Below, one piece after another: positions 12,152-48,300 of a stretch of 64,000 bases of DNA. The notes beneath the pieces are model-generated. The model searched no databases, was not told the DNA's origin, and saw only the letters and a program-made list of their open reading frames with translations. Position 1 is the first letter of the stretch, and every line of letters starts with the position of its first letter. Source of the stretch: Xanthostigma xanthostigma (Eukaryota > Arthropoda > Insecta > Raphidioptera > Raphidiidae); assembly GCA_963575645.1 (NCBI GenBank), contig OY754464.1, positions 3,844,001 to 3,908,000 of the forward strand. The letters are read 5' to 3'. The position numbers were made by a program, and so were the translations under genes.

Positions 12152-12157
12152 CACACT
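12152..12157. repeat. Polinton target-site duplication, left copy
   Basis: CACACT directly precedes the left TIR and is repeated at 34482-34487 directly after the right TIR. Six base pairs is the duplication length typical of Polintons. Confidence 0.9.
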
Positions 12158-13825: not shown

Positions 13826-14018
13826 TGTTATATATTTGATTTCTAATTGTGTATCTGACTTTATAATTATAGTTATTATGTAAAATAGTTTTGAGTTGTA
13901 TAATATCTGTACAGAATTGTAGATATAAAAATGAATGTTTAATTTAATTTAAAAAGAGAATAAAATTTGAGTTGAACTTAAAAGGTTTTTGATTTAAAAT
14001 TAAGAAAAAGATATAACA
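13826..14018 (+). repeat. 5' LTR (193 bp)
   Basis: TGTTATATATTTGATTTC...GATATAACA, identical to 18354-18546. AATAAA within AGAGAATAAAATTTGAG is the likely R-region polyadenylation signal. Confidence 0.95.
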
Positions 14019-14056: not shown

Positions 14057-17000
14057 ATGCCGGACGAAGCGAAAGCGGCAGCCATGCCTTCGAGGCTACT
14101 TGGTTTCATGGAACCATACACAGTGGGAGAAAATTTTGAGGAATATTTGGAACGTGTAGACAATTATTACGAGCTGAATAATATAACAAATAGCATATTT
14201 AAAATACAATTACTTTTAAATTTAATCGGACCTACAGCGAGTGCCAAGATATCCAAAGCGTGCAAACCGAAGAAGCCCAAAGAATATTCTTATGAGCAAA
14301 TTATAAGTAAATGTAGAGCAATTTTCTGTGGTGGGCGCCTAACAATTGCAGAACATTATAAATTTAACAATAGAAACCAACAAGAAGGAGAATCTATTTC
14401 GGAATTTGCAATTGAACTGCAAGCATTAGCAGAACATTGCGAGTTCCAAGAGGCATTTCTGGATATAGCATTAAGAGATCGATTTGTAGCAGGCCTAAAG
14501 AGCGATTCAATTAAATCAAGATTACTAGGGGAAGAAAAGAAGTCTACGTTCGAAGATTTGGTGAAAATAGCGATTAGTATGGAAATGGTTAGCAAAGAAG
14601 TAGGGATTATGCACGGTCAAATAAAGGGACATCAAGAAAACAGTAAAAATCAAGGAAATATAAATTCAGTAAAACAGAAGAATAAGGAAGATAACAGGCA
14701 GAGAGGAAGAAATGAAGTTTATCAACGGAGAGGTACATACACGCATCAAGGAGGACGTTCTTTCAATTCGTACAATGAAGGTCGACAAGGAAATCGAAGA
14801 TATGAGGAAGTCACATGCTTCAGCTGCGGAGGAAAAGGTCACTTCAAGCGGGACTGTCCTTCGAAAAGAAGCTATAGGTATAATAATAATAATAATTACA
14901 ATAATAATCAATTTAGCAATAATAATCAATTTAACAATAATAACAGATTTAACAACAGAAGCTATAGCAATAACAGGTACCCCAGTTTTAGAGGTCATAA
15001 TTCTTTCAACAATAGAGTAGGTTATATAGATTCTGAGAAAGTTAACGAAGAGTTTGATAATGCAAGTAGTGAGGTCTCGGTAAATAATATAACCGTTTGC
15101 AAAAATGTGAATAGAGATACGTGTAATCAAATCGAAAGTAAAGACCCTGAATATATTTATATCAAAATAGAAAGTATTGTCCTTAAAATGGAATGTGATA
15201 CGGGGTCATGTTTTTCCATTTGTTCGCTGAATAATTTCGAAAAATATTTCAAGCATTTAACTTTAGAACGGGTTAATTTGCCATTGTCTGTCGTTACGGG
15301 TGAAAATATCAAAATCAGAGGTCAAGTCAAAGTCAAAGTCATTCTACGAAATAATAAGTATGAATTAAATTTAATAATAATTGAATCAAATAAAAATTTT
15401 GTTCCATTGTTAGGACGCGATTGGCTCGACATCCTATTTCCAAATTGGCGAAAAAACTTTCTCGTCAATTCTTGCAATTTGGGAGAAATACATTTAAATG
15501 AAATTAAAGTTAAATATAAAGCGTTATTTGATGGGAATTTAAAAACACCGATAAAAGATTTTGTGGTAGACATACATTTACAGGACAATGTACAGCCCAT
15601 TTTTCGTAAAGCGTATACATTACCGTTTTTTTTAAGAAGCAAAGTAGAGTTAGAAATTGAGCGTTTATGTAAAGAGGGTATATTAATACCGGTATCTAGA
15701 TCAGAGTGGGCATCCCCAATAGTAGCAGTTCCAAAGGGAAAGGAAGGAATTCGAGTCTGTGTTGATTGCTCGGTAACTTTGAATAAGGTTATAAAAATGG
15801 AGCACTATCCACTGCCCGTCATTGATGAAGTGTTAGCTAAACTCATAGGTGCTAAGTATTTTTGTGTGCTTGATCTAAAGGGAGCTTATCAGCAGCTAGA
15901 ATTAAAGGATAGGGCACGGGAATTGTTGACAGTGAACACGCATAAGGGGTTATTCTCTTACTGTAGGTTACCGTTCGGTATTAAATCTGCAGCATCTATT
16001 TTTCAGTGGGTGATGGATACTATTTTAAAGGGATTAGAAATGGTACACTGTTATATTGATGATATTTTAATTGGCGACATCTCATTAGACAAGTTAAAAA
16101 ATAGATTGTGTTTAGTTTTAGACAAATTGTCAGAATATAATGTTAAAATTAACTGGGATAAATGTAAATTTTTCGTGGATAAAGTGACGTATTTGGGTCA
16201 TGAAATATCGCAAGAAGGGATATCTCCCAGTAAGCAAAAGGTGGAAGCAATTATAGCTGCACCTGAACCTAAAAATGTAACGCAATTAAAGTCATTTATC
16301 GGATTAATAAACTATTATTCTAAGTTCATACCTAACTTAAATGTGAAGCTAAGTGTTCTTTACAAATTACTGCGTAAAAACTCAGTATGGGAATGGGATG
16401 AAACATGTCGCACGGTTTTCGAAAAATGCAAAAAAGAAATTTTGAAAAATAGAATCCTAGAACATTATGACCCCAGCAAGCCCATAATTATAATCTGTGA
16501 TGCTAGTGATAGTGGATTGGGTGGAATATTATGTCATATTATAAACGGTATAGAAAAACCAGTTTTTTTTGTTTCGCGTACATTAACACAAACGGAGCGT
16601 AACTATCCAATTCTACACCGCGAAGCATTAGCCGTAGTATTCGCGACGGAAAAATTCTATAAGTATATTTTTGGTCATCGGGTAACAATCTATAGTGATC
16701 ACAAACCTTTAGAATCTATTTTAAATATTAAAAAGGGAGAACCTGCCGTTATTTCAAATAGGTTACAAAGATATGTTTTTCGACTATCAAATTTTGATTA
16801 TGTTTTAAAGTATCGCAAGGGCTCCAGTATTAGTCATGTTGATTGCTTATCACGTTTGCCAAGTTCATCTGAACAATCAGTCGATGATATAGAGGAGGAA
16901 AGTTTAGGTATTAATTCTATAGTATCGGAAACAGGATTAAAATTGAATGTTGAATTAATAAGAGAAGAAACGCAAAAAGATTTATTTTTAAGAAGGTTGT

Positions 17001-18217
17001 ATCAGTTTATTTTAAGGGGGTGGAAAGATAGTAAAGTGATACCTGAATATAAGAACTATTTTTCAAAAAGTAAAGATTTGAGCATTGAACAAGGATGTAT
17101 AGTTTTCGGGTCAAGAATAGTTATTCCTAATATATTGACAAAAGACGTTTTAAATCTATTACATATGAATCACATTGGTATAACAAAAATGAAACAATTG
17201 GCTAGACGTTATGTCTATTGGGACAATATTAACAATGCCATTGAAATGTATGTCAAAACATGCGAAAGCTGTCAAAAGTTTGGGAAAGATTTTGGGCATA
17301 AGAATTTCGGAAATTGGCCAAAGGTAACTTTTCCTTTTGAAAGGGTTCATCTTGATTTCTTTTATTTTCATGGGAAGCAATATTTAATTTTGATTGATGT
17401 ATATACCAGATGGATAGAGATTAAAGAAATAAGAAATAATAATGCATATAACTTGATTAATGAATTAGAATCAATTTTTAAAATATTTGGATATTGTAAA
17501 AATTGTGTCTGTGATAATGGCCCTCCTTTCAACAGCTTTGTTTTTAAAAACTTCTGTGACAAAAAGGGCATAGTACTGTGGCACAGTCCGCCATATCATG
17601 CTCAGAGTAATGGTATAGTGGAAAGAGCGGTTCAAACTACTAAATCAGTTTTAAAAAAGTTCGTTATTGAATCACAAAATTCCATATTAGATATAAGCAA
17701 GGAAATTGATAAATTTTTATGTAATTACAGGAATTTGCCTTGTACTCATGATAATATAATACCATCTCATAGAATGTTTAACTTTAAGCCTAGATTTTCT
17801 TTAGATGCTATCAACATTAAAAGAAATATAAATCACGATATAAATATTTCGCAACATAATAAACCAACAATTAAATCAACCGAAACGGTTTTGCAAAATA
17901 ATTCTAAAATACCTTATTACAATTCTAATGATATAATTTGGTATAAGAATAATATAAGTAGTAATATTAAATGGGTAAAAGCTAGAATTATTGAGCAAAA
18001 GAGCAAACATGTTTATCAGATTAATGTTAATAATTTAATTAAATTGGCTCATGTTAATCAAATGAAATCTTTTTGTAGAGAACCTCTTAGTTGGTCACGC
18101 TCTTTGCTAAATAATCCTACCTTACCTATCATGGGTTTACGTAGTCCTATTTCTTTACCTAGAAGGTCGAATAGGTCTCGTAGACAACCTGAGAGATTTC
18201 AGGCATCTTGGGATTGA
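14057..18217 (+). CDS. Gag-Pol polyprotein of Ty3/Gypsy element
   Basis: One uninterrupted frame of 1,386 codons; the ATG at 14057 is the first in frame. Gag has a zinc knuckle CFSCGGKGHFKRDC (about residue 254) followed by an Asn-rich spacer. Protease shows the DTGS motif (about residue 382) and LLGRDW. Reverse transcriptase shows VLDLKGAYQQ, LPFGIKSA and the YIDD box. RNase H follows (DASDSGLGG; YSDHKPL). Integrase has an HHCC zinc-binding N-terminus (H..H near NHIGI; CESCQ) and the D,D,E core (HLDFF; CDNGPPF; ...IVERAV). Gag and Pol are in the same frame, so no frameshift is needed. No envelope gene follows. All catalytic motifs are intact, so the copy may be competent. Confidence 0.95.
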   Translation: MPDEAKAAAMPSRLLGFMEPYTVGENFEEYLERVDNYYELNNITNSIFKIQLLLNLIGPTASAKISKACKPKKPKEYSYEQIISKCRAIFCGGRLTIAEHYKFNNRNQQEGESISEFAIELQALAEHCEFQEAFLDIALRDRFVAGLKSDSIKSRLLGEEKKSTFEDLVKIAISMEMVSKEVGIMHGQIKGHQENSKNQGNINSVKQKNKEDNRQRGRNEVYQRRGTYTHQGGRSFNSYNEGRQGNRRYEEVTCFSCGGKGHFKRDCPSKRSYRYNNNNNYNNNQFSNNNQFNNNNRFNNRSYSNNRYPSFRGHNSFNNRVGYIDSEKVNEEFDNASSEVSVNNITVCKNVNRDTCNQIESKDPEYIYIKIESIVLKMECDTGSCFSICSLNNFEKYFKHLTLERVNLPLSVVTGENIKIRGQVKVKVILRNNKYELNLIIIESNKNFVPLLGRDWLDILFPNWRKNFLVNSCNLGEIHLNEIKVKYKALFDGNLKTPIKDFVVDIHLQDNVQPIFRKAYTLPFFLRSKVELEIERLCKEGILIPVSRSEWASPIVAVPKGKEGIRVCVDCSVTLNKVIKMEHYPLPVIDEVLAKLIGAKYFCVLDLKGAYQQLELKDRARELLTVNTHKGLFSYCRLPFGIKSAASIFQWVMDTILKGLEMVHCYIDDILIGDISLDKLKNRLCLVLDKLSEYNVKINWDKCKFFVDKVTYLGHEISQEGISPSKQKVEAIIAAPEPKNVTQLKSFIGLINYYSKFIPNLNVKLSVLYKLLRKNSVWEWDETCRTVFEKCKKEILKNRILEHYDPSKPIIIICDASDSGLGGILCHIINGIEKPVFFVSRTLTQTERNYPILHREALAVVFATEKFYKYIFGHRVTIYSDHKPLESILNIKKGEPAVISNRLQRYVFRLSNFDYVLKYRKGSSISHVDCLSRLPSSSEQSVDDIEEESLGINSIVSETGLKLNVELIREETQKDLFLRRLYQFILRGWKDSKVIPEYKNYFSKSKDLSIEQGCIVFGSRIVIPNILTKDVLNLLHMNHIGITKMKQLARRYVYWDNINNAIEMYVKTCESCQKFGKDFGHKNFGNWPKVTFPFERVHLDFFYFHGKQYLILIDVYTRWIEIKEIRNNNAYNLINELESIFKIFGYCKNCVCDNGPPFNSFVFKNFCDKKGIVLWHSPPYHAQSNGIVERAVQTTKSVLKKFVIESQNSILDISKEIDKFLCNYRNLPCTHDNIIPSHRMFNFKPRFSLDAINIKRNINHDINISQHNKPTIKSTETVLQNNSKIPYYNSNDIIWYKNNISSNIKWVKARIIEQKSKHVYQINVNNLIKLAHVNQMKSFCREPLSWSRSLLNNPTLPIMGLRSPISLPRRSNRSRRQPERFQASWD

Positions 18218-18353: not shown

Positions 18354-18546
18354 TGTTATATATTTGATTTCTAATTGTGTATCTGACTTTATAATTATAG
18401 TTATTATGTAAAATAGTTTTGAGTTGTATAATATCTGTACAGAATTGTAGATATAAAAATGAATGTTTAATTTAATTTAAAAAGAGAATAAAATTTGAGT
18501 TGAACTTAAAAGGTTTTTGATTTAAAATTAAGAAAAAGATATAACA
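18354..18546 (+). repeat. 3' LTR (193 bp)
   Basis: It has the same length and sequence as the 5' LTR and is followed by the CACAT duplication at 18547-18551. Confidence 0.95.
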
Positions 18547-29640: not shown

Positions 29641-30357
29641 ATGTCATTCACGTTTACCCTGAGCGGAATCGAGTCGGTGATGAGTAGTTCCTTTTATCCA
29701 TCGATCGTGCTCGACGAAAACGAAGAATATCAATTGGGACTGATTGAGTTTGAGTCGTGGCACTCGATTCCAAATATCGATGAGACCAACAATAAATTTG
29801 TCTACCGTGATCCAGACCTTCCAGATATCGATGAGAATAGGAAAACGATCGAGATACCAAAAGGAACGTATGATATCCATGATATTAACGAATTCCTTGT
29901 CGAAGAATTGAAAAAAGTGAACAGAAACATTAGAATCAAAGCAAATAACAACACGTTGAAAACGGAAATAAAGAGCGATGTGATTATAGACATCGGAGTT
30001 GAAGGTAGCGTGGGATCTCTGCTGGGTTTCAGCAAGACGCGAAAAGTGTTGGAGGCAAACAGTGCACACAAATCAGATTTTACGGCACACATTTCAAAAA
30101 TAAACGCCGTCAGAGTGAAATGTAACATCGTCAGCGGATCCTATTTAAACGGACAGCCCGAGCACACTTTGTTTCAGTTCTATCCGCAAGAGGAGCCGGG
30201 CTATAAAATCTCTTTAACGCCGAGAAACGTTATTTATTTGCCAATCAATCGCAACGTGATAGACAACGTTACAATTACTATTGTTGATCAAGACGATCGA
30301 TCGGTGGATTTCAACGGCGAACCCGTTACCGTGCGTTTACATCTTAAACGCTTGTAA
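29641..30357 (+). CDS. Minor capsid (penton) jelly-roll protein
   Basis: 238 residues, starting MSFTFTLSGIESVMSSSFYP. It matches in size, position and motifs (LIEFESWHSIPNI; SVGSLLGFSKTRKVL; HTLFQFYPQEEPGYKI; INRNVIDNVTITIVD) the single jelly-roll minor capsid protein of Polintons, predicted to form pentamers at capsid vertices. It starts 3 bases after the protease stop and its TAA stop is one base before the next ATG (TAAAATG). Complete. Confidence 0.85.
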   Translation: MSFTFTLSGIESVMSSSFYPSIVLDENEEYQLGLIEFESWHSIPNIDETNNKFVYRDPDLPDIDENRKTIEIPKGTYDIHDINEFLVEELKKVNRNIRIKANNNTLKTEIKSDVIIDIGVEGSVGSLLGFSKTRKVLEANSAHKSDFTAHISKINAVRVKCNIVSGSYLNGQPEHTLFQFYPQEEPGYKISLTPRNVIYLPINRNVIDNVTITIVDQDDRSVDFNGEPVTVRLHLKRL

Positions 30358-32563: not shown

Positions 32564-32794
32564 ATGAAAGACCTTGTAAACAGTTTATTATGCTTGTACG
32601 TTTACAACTCAAACAGCATAAATATTTATTATAAAATGTATTTAGATAAGTGTAAGTTGTTGAATTGTCTACGCTTAAGTTCCAATGATTTTTTTATACT
32701 TAAAGATATTTTTAATTACGAAAGACTCTTTTATGAAATCTCCATAGTTTGTAGTGAAAAAATTATATCTGACTTTAATAGCTGTAATGGATAA
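32564..32794 (+). CDS. Small hypothetical ORF, 76 aa
   Basis: ATG at 32564; rich in Leu, Ile, Tyr and Asn, with no domain and no signal peptide evident. Its stop overlaps the start of the PPP1R15-like gene (ATGGATAA). It may be chance in AT-rich DNA or a leader of the following gene. Confidence 0.25.
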   Translation: MKDLVNSLLCLYVYNSNSINIYYKMYLDKCKLLNCLRLSSNDFFILKDIFNYERLFYEISIVCSEKIISDFNSCNG

Positions 32795-33311
32795 AAATAA
32801 TAAAAAAAAAGTTGTACGTTTTAACGATAAGGTAGAGATTAAATATATGGTTTGTTGGAGTTTTGCATATCGAAAAGCAAGGGTGGGGATGTGGGAGCAG
32901 ATTGCTAGGGATCGTGAACGGTTTAAAAGACGAATAGAAGCAGTCTCTCATATTCTCAGTCCGGTGCTAAGAACTGTCAATTCATCGTCATCATCCGTCG
33001 AGAACATACTAAGCTTAGTGCATAATAATCAAAACAACATGGAAATGCACGAGGCCGGTATTACAGTAATTATAAGAAATAAATACACAAACGAAATATT
33101 ACTTTCAAACTATATCGATTGTATGGATTTACAACCACAAAAAGAAATATTAACGGTTGATGATTTAAAAATTAAAATTATTTTTAACACTTCGGAAAAT
33201 TTACTCGAAGATTCAGACGATTCCGCCGATTGTGATTTTGGTAGTGATGATGATGATGATAAATATAATCAATCAGATATCGATACGTTCAGCATGGATA
33301 CAATAAATTAG
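32787..33311 (+). CDS. PPP1R15/GADD34-like PP1 regulatory protein
   Basis: 174 residues from ATG 32787. Residues 8-12 (KVVRF) fit the RVxF docking motif for protein phosphatase 1. The following ~40 residues (CWSFAYRKAR at 23-32, WEQIARDRERFKRRI at 36-50) match the conserved C-terminal block of PPP1R15 (GADD34/CReP) proteins: RVxF, then an aromatic Trp, then W-E-x-x-ARDRxRF. In that family the block recruits PP1 and, with G-actin, dephosphorylates eIF2-alpha, restarting translation after kinase-imposed shut-off. Known viral relatives exist in herpes- and asfarviruses. Here the block is N-terminal, followed by an unrelated ~120 residues and an acidic tail (DDSADCDFGSDDDDD). The FAYRxAR wording is close to insect PPP1R15 as I remember it, suggesting capture from a host. 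The frame is intact. Confidence 0.85.
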   Translation: MDKNNKKKVVRFNDKVEIKYMVCWSFAYRKARVGMWEQIARDRERFKRRIEAVSHILSPVLRTVNSSSSSVENILSLVHNNQNNMEMHEAGITVIIRNKYTNEILLSNYIDCMDLQPQKEILTVDDLKIKIIFNTSENLLEDSDDSADCDFGSDDDDDKYNQSDIDTFSMDTIN

Positions 33312-34481: not shown

Positions 34482-34487
34482 CACACT
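34482..34487. repeat. Polinton target-site duplication, right copy
   Basis: CACACT, matching 12152-12157. Confidence 0.9.
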
Positions 34488-45384: not shown

Positions 45385-48300
45385 TTTTAATTGTTGTAAC
45401 AGCTTCTCACCGGCATATTTCAACACAATATCCAATTCGGTCAGGATTCCGTTCCAAGCGTCTTCTAAATTCGATCGTTGTTCTTGATCGATAGACGACG
45501 CATCGTGAGTTAAAAACACCTGTACCATGTCTTGTAGCGTGTTTGATGTTTGTTGAATAAGCTCTGCCGTTCTGAAATAAATAAAAGAAACACACATAGA
45601 TTAGCTATGTTTCAACCTCTCCCCGATCGTCACAGTCATATGCAGTATTTAAAACGAAACTGTTTTTTATTGGCTTTGTGCATATGCGTCGACTTTGCAC
45701 TGTTTTGTGGCTTAAAGAACAGTTCTAGAACCGTTATAGCTACTGCGCATGGCTGTGACGATAATAATACCGTTCGCAGAGAGGCTGGAACAGAGCTTAT
45801 GTATAAACTAAATAATTGACTTTAAAGTTGAGGTATTTCAACCATAAGCTTCTCTAACACCGTCAGTATAGGCTATGTGCACGGAGGCGGAGTTACAAAT
45901 TTTTCGATGCGAGCGTTTGTGGTGAGCACTAGGGGAAACTTCGAACTCCAATTTTCCGTATGTCAGTGAGCAATGTTTATTAAAAGTGAAAGTAGTTATA
46001 ATTTTATAAAGTTTCTTAATTACAAAGAAAACATAGGAAAACTAAGCGATCTGGAAATGCTTGTTGCGCTGATGGCGATTTAAGTAAAATAAAGACCACT
46101 GGCGCCCTAATTTGACGTTTCGCTGTCAGTGTAAACAAATTAACATCAGTTTTCCTTATTACATTTTTTTTTGACACATCATGGCCAACTAAAGTTTTTG
46201 ACTTATCACCTTAGAAACATGTCGCGATTTCCATAAAAAGTGAGTTCAATAATTCTCTATTACCCACTAGCGGCGCTAATAGGCTTCGTGCACACAGCCT
46301 ATATACAGTTGACTCTGTTAGATTAAATAAATAAATATATTTTTATTGCTCCTGTTACAAAAGCAAAAAGTGCAGGATTCAAGCAAAAATTTGGGCTTCA
46401 TATTACTACAAAAGGTACTTTACAAAGTAGACTTTAAAAATAATAATAATTTTAAAGTGATGAAGAGATTGGGTAACAAATTAAGTTCTACCATCAAACA
46501 GTAGCTTATTTTACACATGCTAGGTCGTAGAACACATGTTTAGAAAATCTGGGTTGACAATTTGTTTTCTTACCTTTTGTCACATTTGATTTGAACATCC
46601 GATCCTTGTGAAAGAATTACTTCTTCTGTATTCAACTGCAAGCATAAATGTTTATTATTATTATAATTATATATACAGGGTGTCCCATTAAGAATGGGAC
46701 ATAGAACAACCGCAGATTCTCCAATTCAAAATAAAGCGATTAAGCGAAATATGCTTAGATAAAATGTTACTCGTTTCCGAAATACAGGGTGTTGAAGTTG
46801 AAAACTGAAAAATTATTAATGTCCATAATTTTTTTAATACACCGTATAATTTTACTCAAATCGACACACTTGTTAAATATCATAAAATGCACCTAACAAT
46901 AAAAAAAATAGTTCAGTACGCTCTACCAGTGGCGTACGGCAGGAGTAAGTAATGCTTGTACCCCTTCTAAATGTTACGCCGCTGTCTAAATTTTAATTTT
47001 GACTATAATTTTAATTTTTTTGATATTTTCTAAGTCAATAATGTACACTTGTTAGTTTGTTGTAAAGTCATTGGTTTTCGAGATATTCGCAGTTAAAGAT
47101 AGATAGACATGTACTTTTTATTTGTATTGTTATTAATAATATTCATTTTTACAATTTTGTCTTAAAAAAACTGCGAATATCTCGAAAACCAATGACTTTA
47201 CAACAAACTAACAAGTGTACATTATTGACTTAGAAAATATCAAAAAAATTAAAATTATAGTCAAAATTAAAATTTAGACAGCGGCGTAACATTTAGAAGG
47301 GGTACAAGCATTACTTACTCCTGCCGTACGCCACTGGTAGAGTGAGTAACATTTTATCTAAGCATATTTCGCTTAATCGTTTTATTTTGAATTGGAGAAT
47401 CTGCGGTTGTTCTATGTCCCATTCTTAATGGGACACCCTGTATATATTATTGTCTATCAAGGTTGGAAAATTATAGAGGTTGCCTCGTTCCGTTCGATAG
47501 TAGTGGGGGGATGACGTCATTCAGCGGACCTGTCACTTGATTGTGTGGCATCAAAGAATCAAAAGACAGAATATTGATATTATTTGCAATATATTGAATT
47601 TTTCCGGCAAGAGATTTAAATAGTCCTAATCCAAAATCTTTGATTAACGTCTGATTAGAACTTTTCAATAAATAAAATTATCGATCAATTTTTCAGACAA
47701 TATATTATATAAGAGTATTCGTCCCTGCAAACACCCCCTGCACCCTTCATCACAAATCTTTTCCCCTCGCCTAAAAACGGTTCGCGCTCTCCCGACGCTA
47801 TTTTTAAAGCTAGAGGGTTCTGGTAAACGCCAAATGAAAGACAAAGAATCAGACTACAGATCCTTCAGGCGATTTTTTTGAAAAACAGTTTCGCCTACGT
47901 GTGAAATATTACGTAACTTATTATTTTTTTCAAAAGGTTGTAAGTTTTTTCAGGAATTTTTTTCAAAAAATTCGCCTGAAGGATCTGTAGTCTGATTCTT
48001 TGTCTTTCATTTGGCAGAACCCTCTAGCTTTAAAAATAGCGTCGGGAGAGCGCGAACTGTTTTTAGGCGAGGGGAAAAGATTTGAGATGAAGGGTGCAGG
48101 GGGTATTTGTAGGGACGAATACTCTTAACAAAAAATAATTAATACATTAACGTTTCGATCCGGATTGAAACGTTAATGTATTAATTTTATATTTTTTGTT
48201 AATATATTGTCTGAAAAATTAGTCGATAATTTTATTTATTAAATAGTCCTAGTTAAATATAAATGACATACCTATACGTCAAAGTTCAGGGTTCACGTAT

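Follow-up and report, generated by a model that had tools for sequence, protein, structure and literature searches.

A full-length Polinton in the genome of Xanthostigma xanthostigma (Insecta; Raphidioptera) carries, close to its major capsid gene, a gene whose product contains the core of the PPP1R15/GADD34 proteins. The window examined here is a stretch of 64,000 nucleotides of contig OY754464.1, and the coordinates of its features are given in Table 1. The gene belongs to a family of capsid-bearing Polintons that is present in many copies in the host genome, and its core is conserved by purifying selection. Judged from the sequence, the product is quite probably a viral targeting subunit of the eIF2alpha phosphatase, a reading that runs from phosphatase and substrate binding through to benefit for the element and includes capture of the core before the clades of the element split.

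Table 1. Features of the Polinton in the window (positions are those of the window)
Feature	Start	End	Strand	Remarks
Full-length Polinton (Maverick/adintovirus-like)	12158	34481	+	Inverted repeats, target duplication, capsid gene
Left terminal inverted repeat	12158	13054	.	Holds short tandem repeats
Nested Ty3/gypsy-type LTR retrotransposon	13826	18546	+	~4.7 kb; pol ORF 14057-18217
Probable protein-primed DNA polymerase B, 1309 aa	19538	23467	+	YTDTD motif at residue 1147
A32-type packaging ATPase	24246	24998	+	PF04665 29.8 bits, over cut-off
Retrovirus-like integrase	27428	28402	+	PF00665 E 7.4e-13
Phospholipase A2-like protein	28406	29281	+	PF08398 E 8.7e-12, over cut-off
Adenain-type protease-like ORF, short (100 aa)	29335	29637	+	PF00770 19.9 bits, just under cut-off 21.3
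Double-jelly-roll major capsid protein, 409 aa	30603	31832	+	PF21738 E 8.9e-94
207-aa protein between capsid and PPP1R15-like gene	31922	32545	+	Conserved in clades A to C
76-aa ORF	32564	32794	+	Overlaps start of PPP1R15-like gene by 8 nt
PPP1R15/GADD34-core gene	32787	33311	+	174 aa, without need for an intron
RVxF-type PP1-docking motif KVVRF	32808	32822	+	Residues 8-12
eIF2alpha-binding motif RVGMWEQIARDRERFKRRI	32880	32936	+	Residues 32-50, including W36, F46, R49
LSPVL, equivalent of DP71L LSAVL	32955	32969	+	Residues 57-61
Four-stranded beta domain	33057	33185	+	Residues 91-133; absent from inferred host PPP1R15
Acidic, fast-evolving C-terminal tail	33198	33308	+	Residues 138-174
Right terminal inverted repeat	33561	34481	.	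Inverted-repeat arms

The element is flanked by an identical 6-bp target-site duplication (CACACT, at 12152-12157 and 34482-34487). A terminal 22-mer begins exactly at the first base of the element, and its reversed copy ends at the last. The inverted repeats are ~0.9 kb long and rich in tandem units; the best arm is 285 nt at 99%, and a single BLAST piece covers 752 nt at 92.4%. The two LTRs of the nested retrotransposon (13826-14018 and 18354-18546, 193 nt each) are 100% identical. The 1309-aa ORF also contains one or more N-terminal C2H2 fingers and an endonuclease-VII-like block (PF02945, over cut-off). At E 0.1, neither Pfam nor PHROGs nor NCBIfam offers a polymerase family that matches it, so the name polymerase B is taken from its motif and position. 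The interval 29641-30357, which has no Pfam match, occupies what we take to be the usual place of the minor capsid (penton) protein. At its C-terminus the integrase shows a weak match to a chromodomain (PF00385, 16.9 bits, below cut-off); the definition of the Adintoviridae, in the available portion of PMC11071296, includes a PolB with an OTU-like N-terminal domain and an integrase with a chromodomain. The PPP1R15-like gene starts 954 bases past the stop of the capsid gene, which bears out its placement next to the capsid gene of a Polinton in the initial annotation. That annotation also called the element intact. It is indeed full-length, but the nested Ty3/gypsy element and a protease ORF that is short and just under its Pfam cut-off qualify the term. 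Outside the Polinton, near-perfect short-range inverted repeats occur at 46665-47451 and 47844-48000 of the window (174 nt at 100%, 108 nt at 98% and 42 nt at 98%).

The coordinates and length originally given for the PPP1R15-like ORF are exact, and the ORF lies on the plus strand. Residues 6-62 correspond to the functional core of PPP1R15/GADD34. When the 174-aa ORF was compared by phmmer with 177,635 distinct PDB sequences, human PPP1R15A was matched at E 4.5e-9 (7nzm_C, query residues 9-62). Further matches were to PPP1R15A (4xpn_B, E 1.7e-6; 7nxv_C, E 2.3e-3) and to DP71L of African swine fever virus (ASFV; 9nb9_B, E 1.5e-4), and two PPP1R15B entries were matched only weakly (E 0.2 and 0.22). 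A profile built from eight element copies gave 2e-9 to human PPP1R15A and 1.5e-4 to DP71L. The local alignment between the ORF and the human core is gap-free with a score of 133, compared with a mean of 21 and a maximum of 40 for 2000 shuffles of the ORF. Pfam family PF10488 (PP1c_bdg) matches residues 6-53 at E 0.0082 and 16.3 bits, under its cut-off of 26.1 bits, and copies from two further clades of the element described below score 17.2 bits (clade B) and 13.8 bits (clade C), also under the cut-off. Because of these scores the ORF is treated here as a protein with a PPP1R15 core and not as a member of PF10488. The homology proposed at the outset is therefore significant by pairwise search, while the match to the family HMM, which the initial annotation had named as a check, falls short.

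All core motifs that could be checked are present, with two exceptions of secondary rank: RARA is missing and PhiPhi keeps only its first residue. The docking motif is followed, as originally described, by W24, W36 and ARDRERF (residues 40-46); in clades B and C the docking motif reads KKVCF or KNVCF. The distance from the RVxF valine to the core tryptophan is 26 residues, the same in the human and viral proteins (gap-free alignment). A published eIF2alpha-binding pattern, Rx[Gnl]x1-2Wxxx[Arlv]x[Dn][Rg]xRFxx[Rlvk][Ivc] (Rojas 2015, quoted in the accessible text of PMC5346070), is matched by all five element copies tried, and is unmatched in the inferred host PPP1R15 (S for R) and in eight of 26 other sequences tried. 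W36, F46 and R49 occupy the positions of human W582, F592 and R595, with human numbering counted from KVRF at 555-558 (excerpt of PMC10743859), and human mutants at these three residues are weakened or impaired (excerpt of PMC8500838). Across clades A to C, residues 24-62 hardly vary. Both LSxxL leucines (L57 and L61) are kept in all three clades, and these leucines are needed in DP71L (PMC5346070, same portion). At the PhiPhi position (human V564 and H565; motif from the excerpt of PMC10743859), I18 fits and K19 replaces the aromatic H565. RARA (human 612-615) is absent, with SSSS at the equivalent ungapped position; it is also missing from ASFV DP71L according to the accessible text of PMC5346070.

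The C-terminal portion of the protein is different in character. Modelled alone, the beta domain gave a good AlphaFold2 model (pLDDT 82.2), whereas the model of the full-length 174-aa protein was poor (pLDDT 42.5). Searches with the beta domain gave no convincing match. Protein database searches returned 1, 23 and 13 proteins, mostly full-length or partial host PPP1R15 proteins and none with genomic context, and the layout with the core first and the new beta domain after it was not met elsewhere among the 36 database proteins returned. The same beta domain and tail are found in P0002 (105 aa, from a 1.8-kb ENA contig), so the domain is present in at least one other record. Other returned proteins are of separate interest. 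P0012 (300 aa, from a 2.7-kb ENA contig) has an N-terminal PPP1R15-like core, a RING finger (PF13920) at its C-terminus and a BIR-looking stretch; from its sequence it is possibly a virus protein that joins an eIF2alpha-phosphatase adaptor to an apoptosis inhibitor. P0003, P0010, P0017, P0021 and P0022 (104-133 aa) contain a PPP1R15-like core and are possibly viral or newly derived genes. In IMG/VR no confirmed relative was found for the PPP1R15-like protein, the capsid protein or alignments A1 and A2, nor for P0012 or P0003.

A search of the host genome (623 Mb) yielded at least 122 pieces matching the PPP1R15-like gene and at least 57 matching the capsid gene, the latter merged to 52 loci. 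Seventy-seven pieces were entered as gene copies. The 45 left out comprised the host gene, small fragments, additional pieces of copies already entered, and degraded pieces lying upstream in the capsid-less derivatives. Among the matches listed, the gene lies within 12 kb downstream of the capsid gene and on the same strand at 48 of the 52 capsid loci, the other four being capsid fragments. At full-length capsid loci a downstream gene match is found in every case listed (46 of 46), one of them, a clade B copy, being only partial. The spacing is characteristic of the clade: in the 28 listed full-length loci of clade A the gene is 907-986 bp downstream, and in the 18 of clade B it is 2117-2141 bp downstream, with one at 6073 bp. 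A search with the Pfam capsid family (53 pieces) found no further capsid lineage in the host genome. Of the listed PPP1R15-like genes with a full-length capsid gene next to them, 25 of the 28 in clade A and 12 of the 18 in clade B have no reported internal stop; for the capsid gene the figure is 45 of 46. The larger number of stops indicates that the PPP1R15-like gene decays sooner after insertion, partly near its A-rich start. An identical capsid protein is encoded at 14 of the 46 listed loci, and the window is 99.8% identical over 2714 nt to a copy on contig C4; together these indicate that the family was active recently.

Among the matches listed, 29 of the 77 gene copies entered lack an upstream capsid gene. 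A capsid-less Polinton derivative of ~18.5 kb, bounded on either side by inverted repeats, was observed (L059, L060 and L071; on C14 at ~4.2-22.8 kb), with similar derivatives on C2, C3, C4, C5, C8, C10 and C11. It contains one clade A PPP1R15-like gene, intact on C14, and a second, degraded one. When the 12 element proteins of the window were compared with the C14 pieces, only the PPP1R15-like protein matched. The gene hitch-hikes in these derivatives and is often broken. It is preceded there by a 288-aa ORF (L060 2308-3171; L028 5615) whose last quarter corresponds to the 76-aa ORF of the window and which matched no PHROGs family. In a copy at C12:13619910-13620710 (L029), and in about a dozen similar capsid-less copies, residues 64-174 are duplicated in tandem, and the first of the two repeats contains stops. 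The ends of C1-C5 (L064, L067-L070) consist of an A/T-rich satellite with GGG-AAAAAA-type units and not of TTAGG repeats.

Selection was estimated from Nei-Gojobori counts on ORFs of at least 170 aa. Between the window copy and three clade B copies, the core has a dN/dS of 0.155-0.174 and the C-terminal domain one of 0.25-0.26, compared with 0.064-0.072 in the capsid gene; for the linker the value between the window copy and clade B is 1.27. Fisher tests on the rounded counts of one A-B pair gave p 9e-6 (core), 9e-4 (domain) and 0.77 (linker). The clade C copy shows weaker constraint against the window (core 0.271, domain 0.325), and the core value between clades B and C is 0.382. Clade A copies do not differ from one another at synonymous sites of the core, so no inference on selection is drawn within that clade; between clades, core dS is about 0.5-0.6. 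Over the whole gene dS is similar to that of the capsid gene (0.73-0.79 vs 0.68-0.71), whereas dN is about five times higher (0.25 vs 0.045-0.049), as expected for a host-facing protein. Purifying selection shows that the PPP1R15-like gene has some function, the nature of which we infer.

A probable host PPP1R15 gene was identified on C11. It has 458 codons, with a GT-AG intron between KK and VHF (splice sites read from sequence), and the inferred second exon of 69 codons scores 33.7 bits and passes the Pfam cut-off. Compared with the viral gene and with human, the inferred host protein is three residues longer between the docking motif and the first tryptophan. Its core is 45.5% identical to the viral core, and 26 other proteins are 45.5-61.7% identical to the viral core. 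In trees of ~66 columns the viral clade forms one group (support 99/99 and 98/93) without a fixed place among animal PPP1R15 proteins. After four long-branch rows had been dropped beforehand (29 of 33 kept), the AU test found the tree data compatible with grouping the viral clade with the host gene (p 0.254) and also with five proteins taken as hymenopteran (p 0.142). Since the viral core is no closer to the host gene than to those of other animals, lacks the three-residue insertion and is unplaced in the tree, this host is not shown to be the donor. On this point the earlier description of the gene as host-captured needs qualifying. Capture from an animal PPP1R15 gene is likely from the sequence comparisons, and the absence of an intron in the viral gene would fit an mRNA route without proving it.

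In line with what PPP1R15 proteins are established to do, we propose that the N-terminal core docks host protein phosphatase 1 via KVVRF, and that G-actin and phosphorylated eIF2alpha are bound by the helix that carries the RxGxW...ARDRxRFxxRI block. In insects the eIF2alpha kinases are PERK and GCN2. If the gene is expressed during infection, PP1 would strip the phosphate from eIF2alpha and allow translation to continue when these kinases react to replication of the element. The beta domain and acidic tail probably serve localisation, stability or a further partner, in lieu of the extended N-terminal part that cellular PPP1R15 proteins have. The core may have been taken from an animal PPP1R15 mRNA or an intron-less copy before clades A, B and C split, and would have been kept by selection since.

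Two alternatives would deny the gene any such role. RVxF motifs are short and common and the Pfam score is below cut-off, so a basic short ORF with a motif-like stretch could in principle arise by chance or convergence. A pairwise E-value of 4.5e-9, an observed score that none of 2000 shuffles approaches, and a motif order and spacing equal to those in human leave next to no probability for such an origin, and it was rejected on the E-value and the shuffle test. The other alternative is a recent host exon carried passively, which the initial annotation had itself raised, or a retrocopy, in either case without function. This would suit a small ORF that needs no intron and resembles a host gene, as well as the many degraded copies, including those lacking an upstream capsid gene. 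However, the core is under purifying selection, the check named in the initial annotation, between clades A and B at a dS of about 0.5-0.6, and the gene stands beside every one of the listed full-length capsid loci. Both the host intron and the three-residue insertion are missing, so that, together with the selection, the gene is not a fresh host exon; the inferred host core is moreover only 45.5% identical. Passive carriage is exceedingly improbable on these grounds (selection, capsid linkage, intron and insertion differences, low identity) and was rejected.

The remaining alternatives accept a function and differ in what it is. PP1 might be recruited to another substrate, for instance a protein of the virion or of replication, or a kinase pathway; the beta domain would then pick the target, and the eIF2alpha helix would be kept only as a scaffold for PP1 and actin. 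Conservation of the beta domain between clades A and B, its lack of a counterpart in host PPP1R15 and the existence of PP1-recruiting viral proteins with other targets (herpesvirus pUL21, PMC12723162) are in keeping with this. However, the most conserved part of the protein is the eIF2alpha-linked block (residues 24-62, including the LSxxL leucines), and we consider a different substrate unlikely. The protein could also serve the host or the integrated element rather than infection: if expressed from integrated copies, it would keep stressed germ cells translating, thereby favouring transposition without a virion stage. Many integrated copies exist, some nearly identical as on C4, and capsid-less derivatives retain a copy of the gene. 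Against this, the gene is often broken in those derivatives, constraint on the PPP1R15-like gene is weaker than on the capsid gene, and an identical capsid protein at 14 of the 46 listed loci is hard to explain without capsid use. A role for the host or the integrated element in place of infection is very unlikely.

Should the preferred reading as an eIF2alpha-phosphatase targeting subunit be true, Polintons would be a third, unrelated kind of carrier of a GADD34-type adaptor, acquired by independent capture. It is an open question whether animal Polintons are transposons, viruses or both; a gene whose only sensible use is to answer a translational defence of the host, kept by selection beside a more constrained capsid gene, makes the viral reading testable. 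The finding also suggests that, in the host animal, DNA parasites are opposed by eIF2alpha kinases, and that the element has to get past a host defence in the manner of a real virus. The broader proposition is that the family is no less a living insect virus than a transposon, recently replicating and countering eIF2alpha phosphorylation with a rebuilt GADD34-type adaptor. In our view it is evenly poised; if it is true, no Polinton was known before this one to counter the translational shut-off of its host, and Polintons would be seen to face an antiviral integrated stress response.

The viral protein resembles PPP1R15A/GADD34 and PPP1R15B/CReP in its RVxF motif, core tryptophan, eIF2alpha motif, equivalents of F592 and R595 and LSxxL-like end, with the same spacing as in human. 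It differs from them in having no long N-terminal region (the core starts at residue 8) and no intron, and in its new C-terminal beta domain and acidic tail. Among insect viruses, an answer to eIF2alpha phosphorylation is provided by baculovirus PK2, which is a kinase mimic and not a phosphatase adaptor. ASFV and Polintons belong to different phylum-level groups of viruses. ASFV DP71L is similar to the Polinton protein in being short, in having the same core with an equivalent of LSAVL and in lacking RARA (accessible text of PMC5346070), but this 71-aa chain ends soon after the core, whereas the Polinton protein has ~110 further residues. By description, ICP34.5 (gamma 34.5) of herpes simplex virus is likewise a viral PP1/eIF2alpha adaptor (portions of PMC10743859 and PMC5346070), with the difference that its core is at the C-terminus (PMC5346070, same portion). 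Drosophila has one PPP1R15 gene, as stated in the excerpt of PMC10743859.

With adintoviruses and animal Polintons (Mavericks) the element shares a hexon-like capsid protein, integrase, ATPase, probable PolB, inverted repeats and 6-bp duplication. It differs from them in that no PPP1R15-like gene is mentioned in the available portions of PMC11071296, PMC8363768 and PMC11071308, in each of which the word 'phosphatase' occurs 0 times. A Polinton with a PPP1R15 gene was not found in the literature searched, in which no paper named both PPP1R15 and Polinton. GADD34-type adaptors are already known from herpesviruses and ASFV (excerpts of PMC5346070 and PMC10743859). Relative to these known viral adaptors, what seems new here is the Polinton carrier and the domain layout, with the core first and a beta domain after it.
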